From Lachnospiraceae bacterium (lineage in GTDB: Bacteria; Bacillota_A; Clostridia; Lachnospirales; Lachnospiraceae): DNA of 6,430 bases. The notes beneath the pieces were generated by a model. It was not told the origin of the DNA and made no database searches. It saw only the letters and a list, made by a program, of their open reading frames with translations. Shown here one piece after another: positions 1,716-6,430 of this stretch. Position 1 is the stretch's first letter. Each line of letters opens with the position of its first letter. The translations under genes and the position numbers were made by a program. Where the stretch lies: contig JAFXWR010000125.1 of the NCBI GenBank assembly GCA_017542725.1, positions 1-6,430 of the forward strand, given 5' to 3'.

Positions 1716-1806
1716 GGAGAGGTACTCAAGTGGCTGAAGAGACGTCCCTGCTAAGGACGCAGTACGGGAAACCGTAGCGAGGGTTCAAATCCCTCCCTCT
1801 CCGCCA
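1716..1806 (+). tRNA. tRNA-Ser, anticodon GCT (reads AGC/AGT)
   Basis: A complete class II cloverleaf is visible. The acceptor GGAGAGG (1716-1722) pairs with CCTCTCC (1796-1802), followed by discriminator G1803 and an encoded CCA. The anticodon stem CGTCC/GGACG closes the loop CTGCTAA, with GCT at 1750-1752. A long variable arm TACGG-GAAA-CCGTA, typical of serine tRNAs, precedes the T arm GAGGG-TTCAAAT-CCCTC. No stem is damaged, so the gene looks functional. It has its own promoter and terminator. tRNA 3' ends are common integration targets, and the accessory-type operon begins about 340 bases downstream. Confidence 0.97.
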
Positions 1807-2150: not shown

Positions 2151-2408
2151 ATGACAAAAGAAGAAATTGAGTTTAAAAAATACTATTTAAAAGAATTTAG
2201 TTTCTTTGATGGCGAATGTGATATTACATTCAACATTGTTGCTATCAACTTTGATAAAAAGGTTATAGAAGTTGCTGTTACAAATCGTGGAAAGATAAGC
2301 GTTATTGAATACGACTTATGCCAAGATAAAAACGGCAACTTTTATTTCATTTATGGAGTTGATAGAAATGAAATCGCTATTGACGATTTTGAAAAAATTG
2401 AAGATTAA
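2151..2408 (+). CDS. Small conserved-looking mobile-element protein, unknown function (85 aa)
   Basis: This is the first gene of the rightward operon. The product is a soluble acidic protein with alternating hydrophobic and polar stretches (DITFNIVAI at 24-32, VIEVAVTNRGKISVIEYDL at 38-56, NFYFIYGV at 63-70), which points to a mainly beta-strand fold. No catalytic motif, metal site, signal peptide or membrane segment is visible. The VAVTNRGKIS and DLxxDKNGxFYFxYG patterns resemble, from memory, short proteins carried by mobile elements of gut Firmicutes, but I know no function. The stop codon overlaps the ribosome binding site of the next gene, so the two are probably co-transcribed and translationally linked. 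Confidence 0.85.
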   Translation: MTKEEIEFKKYYLKEFSFFDGECDITFNIVAINFDKKVIEVAVTNRGKISVIEYDLCQDKNGNFYFIYGVDRNEIAIDDFEKIED

Positions 2409-2420
2409 GGAGTTATACAA

Positions 2421-2681
2421 ATGAAACAGATTTTTAAAAATGTAGTGTTTGATGAAATTAAAAACACATTAGAAAAATTTACAAACAAGAGTTTATATCA
2501 ATGCCCTAATTGCGATTGCATAAATGAATGGGATGATACAAATTACAATCCAGAAGAAAGCACTTACACTTGCCCTAAATGTAGGCACACTTTTGATGAA
2601 AATGATTTACAAGAAGTTACTTTATTAGATTACATCACAGATTTATTTATCACATATAAAGGAGAAAAAGAAAATGACTAA
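2421..2681 (+). CDS. Zinc-ribbon protein, unknown function (86 aa)
   Basis: AAGGAG (2407-2412) precedes the ATG by eight bases. Two cysteine pairs, CPNC at residues 28-31 and CPKC at 51-54, separated by 19 residues, form a classic zinc-ribbon pattern; an extra C33 lies next to the first pair. A short helical segment precedes the ribbon (about 8-22) and an acidic-to-hydrophobic helix follows (about 61-80). Such ribbons bind nucleic acid or mediate protein contacts, but nothing here identifies the partner. Its last eight bases overlap the start of the next gene, consistent with translational coupling. Confidence 0.85.
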   Translation: MKQIFKNVVFDEIKNTLEKFTNKSLYQCPNCDCINEWDDTNYNPEESTYTCPKCRHTFDENDLQEVTLLDYITDLFITYKGEKEND

Positions 2682-3615
2682 ATACGAAATAAATGAACAA
2701 ATTGCAAAATCTGCAAAAGAATTAAATAGTTTTGACGACTATAAAGCCAATTCAGCAACAAACGAATACAACAGTTATTTAAACGACTTTGAACAAAATG
2801 TAAATGAACTTATGGCTAAACATCCAGAAAATTTAAACGAAGAAGCATTACAACTTATTGAGTATTATAAAGATAAGTATTCAAAGAAACTTGCATTTGC
2901 TATCAATAAATCAAATAGCATTGAAGCTATGATGCCAAGCATTATGATTTCTGGTGGTGGAAATTTCAATTTTAGAAAGAAAGAAAAACAAAATCGAGCA
3001 AGAGAAAACTTTTGGAATGAATATGGAAACTTATTTAATGAAGATAATTATTACTATAACAAAATAAGAAATATCATTCTGAATAAAGTTATTTACTCTG
3101 ATGATGCTATGGTTATTGAAAAGTTAGAAGCAAAAATAGACAACCTAAAAGAATTACAAAGCAAAATGAAAGAAGTTAATGCTTATTATAAAAAGAATAA
3201 AACTTTAAAAGGTTGTGAACTTTTGACCGAAGATGAAGCAATAAAGATTATGAACAATATACAATACCATTCTTGGTATCCTGTTCCATTTGCACCATTT
3301 GAACTAACTAATAATAACCAAAATATCCACCGACTTGAAGATCGGCTTGAAAGTTTGAAAAAATTAAAACAAAGAGCAAGCGAAGAAAACGAAAATAAAT
3401 ATATTCAAGTTGATGGTTTGCAAGTTGTTGAAGATGCAACAGATATGAGAATACGACTTATATTTAATGAGATACCTAATGAAAAAGTTAGAGAGTTAAT
3501 AAAACATTGGGGCTTTAAATGGTCGCCTAAAAATAGTGCTTGGCAACGACAACTAACAAGAAATGGAATATATGCTACAAATAAAGTTTTAGAACAATTA
3601 AAGGAGATGAACTAA
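2674..3615 (+). CDS. Conserved-looking mobile-element protein of unknown function (313 aa)
   Basis: AAGGAG (2659-2664) lies nine bases before the ATG, which overlaps the end of the zinc-ribbon gene. The N-terminal third is helical and charged. A distinctive central block reads PSIMISGGGNF followed by RKKEKQN (residues 88-107). A coiled-coil-like region (about 145-175) leads to the block VNAYYKKNKTLKGC (168-181). The C-terminal module (about 245-310) has strand-rich LIFNEIPNEKVRELI, then WGFKWSPKNSAWQRQLT (279-295), rich in aromatic and basic residues. The ISGGxNF, KxHKT/KxNKT and FxWxPxxxAWQRQLT motifs recall a family I associate with conjugative elements of Firmicutes, some members of which are parts of larger multidomain proteins. 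No enzymatic signature is clear. The basic aromatic C-terminus could contact nucleic acid, but this is inference. Confidence 0.9.
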   Translation: MTKYEINEQIAKSAKELNSFDDYKANSATNEYNSYLNDFEQNVNELMAKHPENLNEEALQLIEYYKDKYSKKLAFAINKSNSIEAMMPSIMISGGGNFNFRKKEKQNRARENFWNEYGNLFNEDNYYYNKIRNIILNKVIYSDDAMVIEKLEAKIDNLKELQSKMKEVNAYYKKNKTLKGCELLTEDEAIKIMNNIQYHSWYPVPFAPFELTNNNQNIHRLEDRLESLKKLKQRASEENENKYIQVDGLQVVEDATDMRIRLIFNEIPNEKVRELIKHWGFKWSPKNSAWQRQLTRNGIYATNKVLEQLKEMN

Positions 3616-3616
3616 T

Positions 3617-4210
3617 ATGGGACAATATTATAGTATTTTAACAAAAAGAAATAACAAATTTACAACTTATAGCAGGTCTTTCTATCTATCAAATGGAAAA
3701 ACTGAATATGAACCTGCAAAATTAACTGAACACAGTTGGATAAACAATCATACAATGAGTTGCTTTTCTAACATAATTTTAAGAAAACCAACAAAAGTTG
3801 CTTGGGTTGGAGATTATGCTGACCAATATGAAGAAAGCGAAACAGTTAACAATCTAACATATAGTGAAATACTTGAATTACATAATCAAGCTTGGGAAAA
3901 AGAAAGTAAAATAATGACTTTTAGACCACTATTAGTAAAGTATTTAATTTTAGTTAATTGGGACAAAAAAGAATATGTAATTATGTATGAATATATTGAA
4001 AAATCAACAACCAAAGATGGATGGTGCTTACACCCATTATCATTACTTACTGCATTAGGAAATGGCTTTGGTGGTGGTGATTATCGAGGTATAAACCAAG
4101 ACAAAGTTGGAATTTGGTGCTTTGATACAATATCATTTGAAAGTTATGATGTTGAAGAAAAATTAAAAGAACAAAACTTTACTAAATTAGATATAGAATT
4201 TAAGGAGTAA
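3617..4210 (+). CDS. MGQYY-family protein of unknown function (197 aa)
   Basis: AAGGAG (3601-3606) lies ten bases before the ATG, which follows the previous stop by one base. The protein starts MGQYY and contains EHSW (38-41), VAWVGDYAD (61-69), and HPLSLLTALGNGFGGGDYRG (139-158), then VGIWCFD (164-170). This ordered set of motifs recalls a family I know from plasmids, phages and integrative elements of Firmicutes, without an assigned function. The glycine-rich GNGFGGGDYRG loop and conserved H, D and W residues would fit a binding or catalytic pocket, yet no known enzyme class matches. No membrane segment or signal peptide is seen. It is tightly packed in the operon. Confidence 0.9.
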   Translation: MGQYYSILTKRNNKFTTYSRSFYLSNGKTEYEPAKLTEHSWINNHTMSCFSNIILRKPTKVAWVGDYADQYEESETVNNLTYSEILELHNQAWEKESKIMTFRPLLVKYLILVNWDKKEYVIMYEYIEKSTTKDGWCLHPLSLLTALGNGFGGGDYRGINQDKVGIWCFDTISFESYDVEEKLKEQNFTKLDIEFKE

Positions 4211-4215
4211 AACTT

Positions 4216-4449
4216 ATGAGAAATATTAAAGAAATTAAACCAATACTTACTGCACTATATTGCATCAACTTTATAAACGAGAAAAAAGATGAAGATATTG
4301 ACAAGATTATTAAATATGCTTTTGCAAGAATTTTAGATAGTAATACAAACCTTTTAACACTTGCTTGTGCTGGAAGAACAAAAAAAGATGTAATGAAAGA
4401 AATAAACCAATTTTTAAGTGAAGATACATTATATAAAGGTGGTGAATAA
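4216..4449 (+). CDS. Small helical protein of unknown function (77 aa)
   Basis: AAGGAG (4202-4207) overlaps the region just before the previous stop and lies eight bases ahead of the ATG at 4216. The product is predicted to be almost entirely helical and soluble, with a hydrophobic middle (LLTLACAG, about 46-53) and charged ends. I do not recognise it and see no motif that suggests a function. It ends in KGGE, and its last bases contain the ribosome binding site of the next gene, so translation of the two is likely coupled. Confidence 0.75.
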   Translation: MRNIKEIKPILTALYCINFINEKKDEDIDKIIKYAFARILDSNTNLLTLACAGRTKKDVMKEINQFLSEDTLYKGGE

Positions 4450-4450
4450 A

Positions 4451-4813
4451 ATGGCTAAAATAGAAGATTTAAAAAAGTATTTAAACTATGAATTTTCATC
4501 TGGCTGTTATACTGGTGAAGATTACAAAGAATTTGAAAGAAAATATATTAGTTATCTAAAAACAATATGTAAAGAAAATGGCTGGAAATTCGTGAGAGCA
4601 TTAAAAAATCACTACGAATTTTCGGCTTTTTTAGAAGTTAATTATCATTTCATTTATGTAAGTATTAGTGATGTTAGATTCTTTCAAAATGAATGGTATA
4701 ACAACATTTTGATTAGAACTGCAAAATCAGATATTGATTACACTGGTGGTTCTAATCATTACACCGACTTACCTAGTATAACAACAAATATATTAAATCT
4801 TGCAAGGAGTTAA
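4451..4813 (+). CDS. Conserved-looking mobile-element protein of unknown function (120 aa)
   Basis: The ATG at 4451 is preferred over an in-frame GTG at 4418, because AAAGGTGG (4436-4443) lies seven bases upstream and the longer form would overlap the previous gene by 32 bases. The protein has a helical N-terminus (GEDYKEFERKYISYLK, 22-37), a strand region, then SISDVRFF (71-78) and ILIRTAKSDIDYTGGSN (86-102). SISDVRFF and LIRTAKxxxDYTGGSN recall a family I have seen in accessory elements of gut Firmicutes; no function is known to me. No signal or membrane segment is visible. The next gene starts two bases after its stop. Confidence 0.85.
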   Translation: MAKIEDLKKYLNYEFSSGCYTGEDYKEFERKYISYLKTICKENGWKFVRALKNHYEFSAFLEVNYHFIYVSISDVRFFQNEWYNNILIRTAKSDIDYTGGSNHYTDLPSITTNILNLARS

Positions 4814-4814
4814 A

Positions 4815-5066
4815 ATGGTTATAGATAACAAATATGGCTATAAAGTATGCTATGAAGAACAAGAAAAAAATAAATTAAAAGTTCATTTAGTTACAAACAG
4901 TTTTGACTTGGCTATATGGGAAATAAATAACTATTTAAGAAATCCACAAAGAGATAGAAAAGATAATCATTTGTTAATAAAACCTATATGGCATTTATTT
5001 GAAGTCAAAACAAGTAAAGAATACAATAAGTTATGGAAAGGTTGTCCATTTAAGGACGACCTTTAA
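4815..5066 (+). CDS. Small conserved-looking mobile-element protein, unknown function (83 aa)
   Basis: The ATG at 4815 has AAGGAG (4804-4809) five bases upstream. An in-frame TTG at 4800 gives only five extra residues, has no such signal and is rejected. The sequence GYKVCYEEQEKNKLKVHLVTNS, then a DLAIWEINNYLRNP segment and a closing LWKGCPFKDDL, recalls a short family carried by integrative elements, again without function. Two cysteines (C12 and C77) are too far from others to make an obvious metal site. Its last codons form one arm of a stable RNA hairpin that also covers the stop codon. Confidence 0.85.
   Translation: MVIDNKYGYKVCYEEQEKNKLKVHLVTNSFDLAIWEINNYLRNPQRDRKDNHLLIKPIWHLFEVKTSKEYNKLWKGCPFKDDL
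5037..5064 (+). other. Hairpin covering the 3' end of the 83-residue gene
   Basis: AAAGGTTGTCC (5037-5047) pairs with GGACGACCTTT (5054-5064), eleven positions with one G-U, around the loop ATTTAA. An AT-rich stretch follows without a clean T-run, so full termination is doubtful. It could slow transcription, protect upstream RNA ends, or uncouple translation before the larger fusion gene, whose ribosome binding site begins 14 bases later. Confidence 0.5.
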
Positions 5067-5089: not shown

Positions 5090-5968
5090 ATGTATAAATT
5101 AAATTTAGAAACCAAAACAAAAGAACAAGAACTAATCAAAGAATACTTGCAAAATAATGTTAGTGAAATAATTGCCGACAAAATAAATAATGGCATAAAA
5201 ATCACAAAAGACAATAAAACATTTGTAAACAAAAAAGATTTAGATGGTTTTATGCGTTTTGCAACTAATGAAACAAAAAAACAAGCTGAAAAAGGTGCAA
5301 CCTCTGCCTGTATTGAAGATAAAGTTGTATTTGGTTGGGCTATGCACTACTTTGAAGAAGATAGCATTGAAGGAAAACTATACAATGAAGATGGAACTGA
5401 ATATAAACCTGTTATAACAACTACACCTAAACCTACAACACCAATCAAAACTGAAACTAAAAAAGAAGCAACTAAACAAGCAACATTGTTTGACTTTATG
5501 GTTAATGATAATAAACAAGAAAACAATGAAAAAGATGAAGAAAATGACGAAGAAGTTTGTGATTGTGAAGAAGAAATTGAAGAACAAAAATCAAATATTC
5601 CCGACTATTACAACGAATATCACGAATGCGAATTGTCATATCCAAACATTGTAGTTTTGACCAAACTTGGTGATTTCTATGAAGCTATGAACGAAAATGC
5701 TGAAAGAATTGCAAATGTTTTAGATTTAGTGCTTACATCAAAAGATGTTGGACTTGATAGCAAAGTTAAACTTGCAGGTTTTCCATATCATGTAAAAGAT
5801 GATTATTGTAATAGATTAAATGAGAAATATGACATTATGATACTTGAAAATGGAACACAAAGTTTTATCAAGAAAAAACAAACTGAATTAGAACAAATAA
5901 ATACAATAGATAAATACACTTTAAAAACTATTGCTACACTACTTGATGGCAAAGTTGTATTAAAATAA
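5090..5968 (+). CDS. PcfK/AcrIIA9-like domain fused to a MutS domain I-like module (292 aa)
   Basis: AAGGAG (5078-5083) lies six bases before the ATG. Residues 1-107 resemble the PcfK family, which includes the Cas9 inhibitor AcrIIA9: a helical start, a GATSACIEDKVVFGWAMHYF block (69-88) and a DSIEGKLYNEDGTEYKP tail. A Pro/Thr-rich linker leads to QATLFDFM (130-137), which resembles the beta-clamp-binding consensus QLSLF and the QxSLFDF tail I recall in PcfK-like proteins. A strongly acidic linker covers about 141-166. Residues 172-255 match the pattern of MutS domain I: a YxEY start, GDFYEAM (194-200), LDLVLTSKD (211-219), LAGFPYHVKDDYCNRL (228-243) and IMILEN (249-254). The GDFYE motif keeps the Phe-X-Glu that probes mismatches in MutS. 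The MutS ATPase and clamp domains are absent. The short remainder is helical. The role is unknown; DNA-structure binding at replication or transfer intermediates is an inference. The gene directly precedes a PcfJ-like gene. Confidence 0.85.
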   Translation: MYKLNLETKTKEQELIKEYLQNNVSEIIADKINNGIKITKDNKTFVNKKDLDGFMRFATNETKKQAEKGATSACIEDKVVFGWAMHYFEEDSIEGKLYNEDGTEYKPVITTTPKPTTPIKTETKKEATKQATLFDFMVNDNKQENNEKDEENDEEVCDCEEEIEEQKSNIPDYYNEYHECELSYPNIVVLTKLGDFYEAMNENAERIANVLDLVLTSKDVGLDSKVKLAGFPYHVKDDYCNRLNEKYDIMILENGTQSFIKKKQTELEQINTIDKYTLKTIATLLDGKVVLK

Positions 5969-5978
5969 GGAGGTGAAA

Positions 5979-6430
5979 ATGATTACAGAAAGAGATGTTA
6001 AAGATATACCAAAGTATATGATTAAAAAGATAAAAGAAAAAGACAAAAAAGATTATCCAAATGGCGATAACAACAGAAGATTTTACGCATATCTAACAAA
6101 ATACAATGGTGAACTTGTCAAAGTTACGGTTGCTGTCAAAAATAGATATGGAAAATGGTATTGTAAACAAGTTGCTATTCACGGTATCCACTCAAAAAAT
6201 TGTTTAATAAAAGATATTGTATTCTATCAAATAAGTGGTTATATAGTTGGTTGGTTTAGCGAAGGACTTACCAAAGAACCTAAATATTGGGAAAGCGATA
6301 ATTGGGATTGGAATGACGACAAATATTTTGATCCTTACGCTCCTGTAATAAATCCAGAATACGCACTAAAATTTAAAGAATACAAATATAGTCAGGTAGA
6401 TAAATACCCTTACTGCGATATATTAAAATA
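5979..6430 (+). CDS. PcfJ-like protein, N-terminal part, cut by the window end
   Basis: AAGGAGG (5967-5973) overlaps the previous stop and lies five bases before the ATG at 5979. The frame stays open for 150 codons to the window edge, so the gene is incomplete at its 3' end; the last two bases are TA and fit either a tyrosine or a stop codon. The product begins with a basic helical segment (about 1-25). A strand-rich region follows, with VTVAVKNRYGKWYCKQVAIH (49-68), ISGYIVGWFSEGL (85-97), KYFDPYAPVINPEYALKFKEY (115-135, motif core NPEYALKF) and KYSQVDKYPYCDI. The RYGKWYxKQV, GYxVGWxxEG and FxPxAxVxNxEYxxKFxEYKYS patterns recall the N-terminal part of PcfJ-like proteins, and the pairing with a PcfK-like gene supports that. 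PcfJ is encoded in conjugation regions such as that of pCF10, and its biochemical role is not established. Confidence 0.75.
   Translation, partial: MITERDVKDIPKYMIKKIKEKDKKDYPNGDNNRRFYAYLTKYNGELVKVTVAVKNRYGKWYCKQVAIHGIHSKNCLIKDIVFYQISGYIVGWFSEGLTKEPKYWESDNWDWNDDKYFDPYAPVINPEYALKFKEYKYSQVDKYPYCDILK

Follow-up and report, generated by a model that had tools for sequence, protein, structure and literature searches.

A gene in the window, by which we mean the whole 6,430-nucleotide stretch of Lachnospiraceae DNA analysed here (on contig C12 of a 1.36 Mb genome that is 96.8% complete), raises the question of what the mismatch-binding domain of MutS does in a protein that contains no other part of MutS. 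The gene (5090..5968, plus strand) encodes 292 residues, in which a PcfK-like domain is joined to MutS domain I (MutS-I).

A PcfK-like domain joined to MutS domain I

The PcfK-like N-terminal domain covers residues 1-108 (5090..5413, plus strand, as for all parts of the gene) and is followed by a disordered linker of net charge -10 (residues 109-167; 5414..5590; pLDDT below 50). MutS domain I, recognized by family profile and fold match, occupies residues 168-264 (5591..5881), and the protein ends in a C-terminal tail (residues 274-292; 5909..5965) that resembles the tail of several relatives without MutS-I. A preliminary description of this DNA had proposed such a fusion in one 292-residue protein, and both its naming and its boundaries proved right. 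It had also called for structural comparison of the two parts and for a survey of their co-occurrence. The MutS-I part has the fold of MutS domain I. Predicted alone (residues 1-112), the N-terminal domain gave a pLDDT of 91.9 and a pTM of 0.83. The PcfK profile (PF14058) scored the window protein at 26.2 bits in hmmscan and 27.5 bits in the genome search, against a cut-off of 27 that was passed by all five PcfK-type relatives scanned; a PDB fold search with this domain returned no match at E <= 0.001.

Pfam and NCBIfam scans of the 292 residues revealed MutS domain I as the sole MutS part. The protein is like MutS in its domain I fold, its Phe-X-Glu motif and a clamp-type pentapeptide, which in many MutS proteins lies near the C-terminus, but it lacks the connector, lever, clamp and ATPase domains and is not a MutS. 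Nor did the scans show ArdC-N, a metallopeptidase or other polyvalent effector domains in it; only MutS_I and PcfK rose above noise.

We found that the putative reading residues of MutS-I are well kept. The F196-Y-E198 motif (5675..5683) aligns with F36-x-E38 in E. coli, where the Phe-X-Glu motif of MutS contacts the mismatch (PMC5074593). It was present in all 121 close sequences and in 66 of 67 PcfK-type proteins, the sole exception being L084, which has lost the Phe and reads GDLFE; it was also present in all 11 rows from the giant proteins described below, which represent 10 distinct proteins, and in each of the 44 host MutS rows. The domain is acidic (net charge -5), as is domain I of host MutS (mean -4.7). 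The preliminary description had suggested recognition of heteroduplex or transfer intermediates, and because the motif is kept, such recognition stays plausible. Since both the mismatch-binding and the clamp domains of MutS contact DNA (PMC5074593), domain I alone may bind weakly.

Estimates of dN/dS were 0.08-0.28 in 39 of the 40 pairs listed (57 computed) and 1.99 in one near-identical pair with a dS of 0.005; for MutS-I alone they ranged from 0 to 0.46 among the pairs listed. These data show purifying selection on the family. A chance open reading frame or a fusion made by assembly is ruled out by the large family and by dN/dS values mostly between 0.08 and 0.28.

A conserved peptide in the linker

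The preliminary description had overlooked a motif in the linker, the optional nature of MutS-I and a PcfJ partner. The linker motif, Q130-A-T-L-F134 followed by D135 (5477..5491, plus strand), was located by conservation and is a putative binding motif for the beta sliding clamp (DnaN). Across 121 aligned close sequences, Q130 and F134 never varied and D135 was kept in 119, with the rest of the disordered linker variable. A strict pattern, Qx[STDN][LFMI][FW], was found in 64 of 67 distinct proteins with MutS-I (the window's own included) and in all 26 complete proteins without it; the exceptions read QAALF (one protein) and EPTLF (two). Among three proteins without MutS-I that are cut by contig ends, and were set aside, the motif was present in one, and L080 reads PPLSMF.

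When each linker was shuffled 200 times, the pattern was expected in 0.28 of 76 linkers with MutS-I and in 0.31 of 27 without, compared with 72 and 26 observed; these counts were made before duplicate removal and, since family members are not independent, the figures overstate the case and are not probabilities. The pattern did not occur inside any of 93 PcfK domains or 67 MutS-I domains, or in any of 71 PcfJ proteins, and it was found in 24 of 933 neighbouring open reading frames of at least 100 residues.

The linker peptides of the family include QLSLF, QMSLF, QMSMF and QQSFF, and a 123-residue PcfK protein without MutS-I (L134) has QLNLFDLLG at its C-terminal end. Previous reports gave the beta-clamp peptide consensus as QL[S/D]LF or QxxLF (PMC12309361), later refined to Q-aliphatic-x-[L/M][F/L], with internal motifs such as QADMF also known (PMC11139829). 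QATLF conforms to Qxx[L/M][F/L] and lies in an accessible stretch of the protein. Its Ala at position 2 departs from the refined consensus, a departure shared by the known internal motif QADMF, and the same residue weakens clamp binding in E. coli peptides (PMC11139829). Clamp peptides of MutS itself are QMSLL in E. coli and QLSFF in B. subtilis (PMC8034640); in the same order, 10 of 20 host MutS proteins have one in their C-terminal 150 residues if L is accepted at position 5. Use of a QLxLF-type peptide to reach the host clamp has also been reported for other mobile-element proteins, namely beta-clamp-binding IS transposases, which have no MutS domain (PMC4549789). Together, the linker pattern fits a beta-clamp peptide, and binding to DnaN would be its expected activity. 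In the open-licence PMC literature, outside which much of the field lies, we found no publication that describes a PcfK-MutS fusion or a clamp motif, whether in PcfK proteins or in mobile MutS-I proteins.

PcfJ neighbours, relatives and giant proteins

The gene belongs to a same-strand run that starts 3' of a tRNA-Ser (GCU) gene (1716..1806, plus strand; 12761-12851 on the minus strand of L004). Between the two lie small genes on the plus strand at 2151-2408, 2421-2681, 2674-3615, 3617-4210, 4216-4449, 4451-4813 and 4815-5066 (span 2151..5066). The 313-residue product of 2674-3615 matches phrog_19458, a phage family labelled primase (1.1e-64), with no Pfam family over cut-off. Directly downstream begins a PcfJ-like gene (5973..6430, plus strand; PF14284, E 1.6e-30), which is cut by the window end; its longest frame, from 5973, encodes 441 residues, and an ATG lies at 5979. 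Beyond the window, the PcfJ-like gene is followed by a 106-residue gene and then by an 85-residue gene with DUF6809. Elsewhere on the contig, outside the window, a 296-residue N6 DNA methylase frame and a type I specificity subunit lie beside the element (L004 3070-5044), and towards the contig end, past the element genes, are genes for an rRNA adenine dimethylase-like protein and for an ABC-type ATPase with two ABC domains (L004 372-1283 and 1430-2914).

PcfK and PcfJ are known from pCF10-type elements. The window protein and its neighbour resemble the PcfK (PF14058) and PcfJ (PF14284) families in the N-terminal domain and in the adjoining PcfJ-like gene, and differ in the added MutS domain I and in a Pfam score at the cut-off. 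To see how general this arrangement is, we can turn to 165 stretches from named genomes, in which the best 80 of 128 relatives were kept as loci. The neighbourhood comparison covered 80 loci, our own and 79 of these (L069, which yielded no focus gene in a simple gene call, was dropped). In every one of the 70 loci whose contig continues, a PcfJ gene followed directly on the same strand, and in the remaining 10 the contig ends less than 200 bases from the focus gene. The family of the 106-residue gene (L004 6936-7256 and relatives) stood at position +2 or +3 in 59 of the 80 loci, and the PcfK, PcfJ and 106-residue genes look like a conserved triad. Among the 80 loci we also found neighbour clusters of ArdA type (29), Rep (ORF2/G2P) type (14), tyrosine integrases (7) and serine recombinases (7), each named from one scanned representative. 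The mobile-element setting envisaged in the preliminary description fits these observations, with the gene run 3' of the tRNA, the adjoining PcfJ, and ArdA, integrase, recombinase and Rep-type genes near some relatives. A further family, seen in 5 of the 80 loci, is represented by a 702-residue membrane-like protein (L058 14180-16285, minus strand) that by eye has a Walker-A-like GSMGKKKTT and gave no Pfam match. We found no described function for PcfK- or PcfJ-like proteins in the open-licence PMC literature.

The relatives come mostly from Clostridia metagenome-assembled genomes, with single bins named Gastranaerophilales, Elusimicrobiaceae, Treponema and others, and a fusion unique to the Lachnospiraceae genome of the window is ruled out by these relatives (best 80 of 128). 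One full-length relative (L175) lies in MT835493, an unannotated and unverified 57 kb faecal record labelled 'Bacteriophage sp.'. The first loci held 57 frames with MutS-I and 27 without. After exact duplicates were removed, a wider set of 96 proteins comprised 67 with MutS-I (our own included), 26 complete ones without it and the 3 cut by contig ends; the pairing of PcfK with MutS-I is also visible in precomputed Pfam annotation. The N-terminal domain and the linker motif persist in relatives without MutS-I, which often also end in a similar tail. What stays constant is the PcfK core with its clamp-like peptide and PcfJ neighbour; MutS-I is optional. Parsimony on an N-terminal domain tree counts 13 changes between presence and absence of MutS-I, of which strongly supported branches force only one.

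A clamp-type motif also accompanied MutS-I in a second architecture. Eleven of 14 long MutS-I proteins without PcfK that we examined carry the strict motif; the giants with it fall in the ranges L147-L155 and L196-L198. These giants reach 4,197 residues, and in ten of them the motif lies about 76-121 residues after MutS-I; L153 likewise has it after MutS-I. Three whole frames were read, one having a single motif match in 3,738 residues and two having one extra, distant match. Helicase, DUF3849 and other domains were found in the two giants scanned. The strict motif was missing from L135 (ArdC-N, metallopeptidase), from L199 (LPD1 and LPD3, with a frame open at both contig ends) and from L200 (methylase), which has the looser QMEMF and QYPLF before MutS-I. 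The motif thus accompanies most, but not all, mobile MutS-I proteins.

In a tree of 122 MutS-I domains (96 columns; L153, L199 and L200 left out), a branch with support 100/98 divided the 45 host MutS rows, taken from among the best-scoring of the same order only, from all mobile rows. On this separation we reject a recent fragment of host mutS. The PcfK-type and giant rows were placed together and not cleanly separated, with many forks lacking resolution; most giants share the clamp-like motif too. The polyvalent proteins of Iyer et al. 2017 (PMC5512222) are likewise mobile-element products, from Firmicutes and Bacteroidetes, in which MutS domain I occurs outside MutS, but they are large and multidomain, about 80% having ArdC-N, whereas the window protein has 292 residues, PcfK and no ArdC-N match. 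Mobile MutS-I is thus already published; the accessible text of PMC5512222 has no occurrence of PcfK, PcfJ, DnaN or clamp, and in the open-licence PMC literature we found no text on the PcfK pairing or on the clamp motif.

Possible roles on the mobile element

Given a constant PcfK core, peptide and PcfJ neighbour with an optional MutS-I, the protein can be read as a clamp-docking adaptor with a distortion-finding module, a reading of which we are about half convinced. The PcfK-like core would work with the PcfJ-like protein encoded next door, a contact suggested by their conserved pairing. QATLF, in the flexible linker, would dock the protein on the host beta sliding clamp, and MutS domain I, judging from its fold and motif, may insert its Phe-x-Glu close to the clamp, where DNA is unpaired, mismatched or kinked. 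The purpose of such docking, we infer, would be to hold the PcfK/PcfJ machinery on new element DNA during replication or second-strand synthesis, to the benefit of the element. As relatives without MutS-I keep the peptide, clamp docking would be the core activity, to which MutS-I adds specificity. The protein would act as a MutS reduced to a reader and a clamp tether; since the ATPase, connector, lever and clamp domains are absent, it could mark or shield a site, but the known signalling route to MutL would be closed to it. Iyer et al. proposed that, once the element has entered and is replicating, mobile MutS-I binds to its short single-stranded stretches (PMC5512222). Their proposal agrees with the adaptor reading, and the clamp peptide would add where and how the protein is held.

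The same combination of a reader and a clamp peptide without ATPase could instead occupy mismatches or the clamp and keep host MutS and MutL off incoming or recombining element DNA, which is close to the competition with host mismatch repair raised in the preliminary description. The kept F-x-E (66/67) and the same kind of clamp peptide in half of the host MutS examined are in line with such a decoy. However, there is little for it to act on in the window's own host, in which searches over the cut-off found neither MutS_V (PF00488) nor MutL_C (PF08676) nor a second MutS_I, apart from one match of only 13 bits, unless the genes are missing from the assembly, and relatives without MutS-I have the same locus and partner. 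Among 200 genomes of the order, 17 were carriers (A1 profile, E < 1e-40, match from residue 1 or 2), the protein having MutS-I in 15 and apparently lacking it in two (G186 and G177). PF00488 was found in 191 of the 200 and in all 16 carriers other than our own, a tally that is an upper bound for host MutS as PF00488 also counts MutS2. These 16 genomes would leave the decoy targets elsewhere, and they rule out the protein as a stand-in for a missing MutS. On balance we regard the decoy as unlikely. We give slightly less credence to the idea that the Qx[ST][LF]FD peptide docks PcfJ or another element protein in place of the clamp, MutS-I being a binding module unlinked to replication. The PcfJ companion is indeed as constant (70/70) as the motif, but the variation of the peptide (position 2 free, mostly S or T at 3, L, M, F or I at 4, F at 5) is of the clamp-peptide type, and the peptide recurs in 11 of the 14 other mobile MutS-I proteins.

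An anti-CRISPR role, in which the PcfK/AcrIIA9-like core blocks Cas9 and MutS-I and the linker only position it on DNA, appears quite improbable. AcrIIA9 is reported to carry the Pfam PcfK domain (PMC6739104), and 29 of 80 loci have an ArdA-type cluster, identified from one scanned representative, in the neighbourhood. The likeness to AcrIIA9 is that of a shared Pfam family, and the accessible main text of PMC6739867 does not mention AcrIIA9. Against this role, our own genome gave no Cas9 match, and Cas9 was found in 5 of 17 carriers compared with 33 of 183 other genomes of the same order (Fisher p 0.33), by which an association with Cas9 is rejected. Of the anti-CRISPR link drawn in the preliminary description, the shared Pfam family stands and nothing more. 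Finally, MutS-I might be a structural remnant of a captured mutS fragment that does no DNA reading. Loss of the Phe in L084 and absence of the whole domain from 26 complete relatives would suit such a remnant, but retention of F-x-E in all the other 66 of 67, the low dN/dS of MutS-I and the position of the 45 host MutS rows apart in the tree, by which MutS-I is no fresh fragment, make it very improbable.

Returning to the adaptor reading, a broader form of it, which we put forward tentatively and hold to be possible and short of probable, is that mobile elements joined MutS-I to a clamp tether in at least two architectures, the PcfK type and the giants, producing ATPase-less 'mini-MutS' readers that, riding on the host clamp, would patrol new DNA of the element. 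PcfK proteins as a family would then be clamp-docking adaptors for PcfJ, and AcrIIA9-type proteins would fall in a replication setting. Mobile elements of gut bacteria commonly encode PcfK- and PcfJ-like proteins, and a reported anti-CRISPR is among those with a PcfK domain; the conserved clamp-type peptide offers a concrete and cheap handle on the role of PcfK. If MutS-I works without the rest of MutS, the reading of mismatches or distortions would be uncoupled from ATP signalling, and an element would gain a means of marking or concealing its own DNA at the replication fork of the host.
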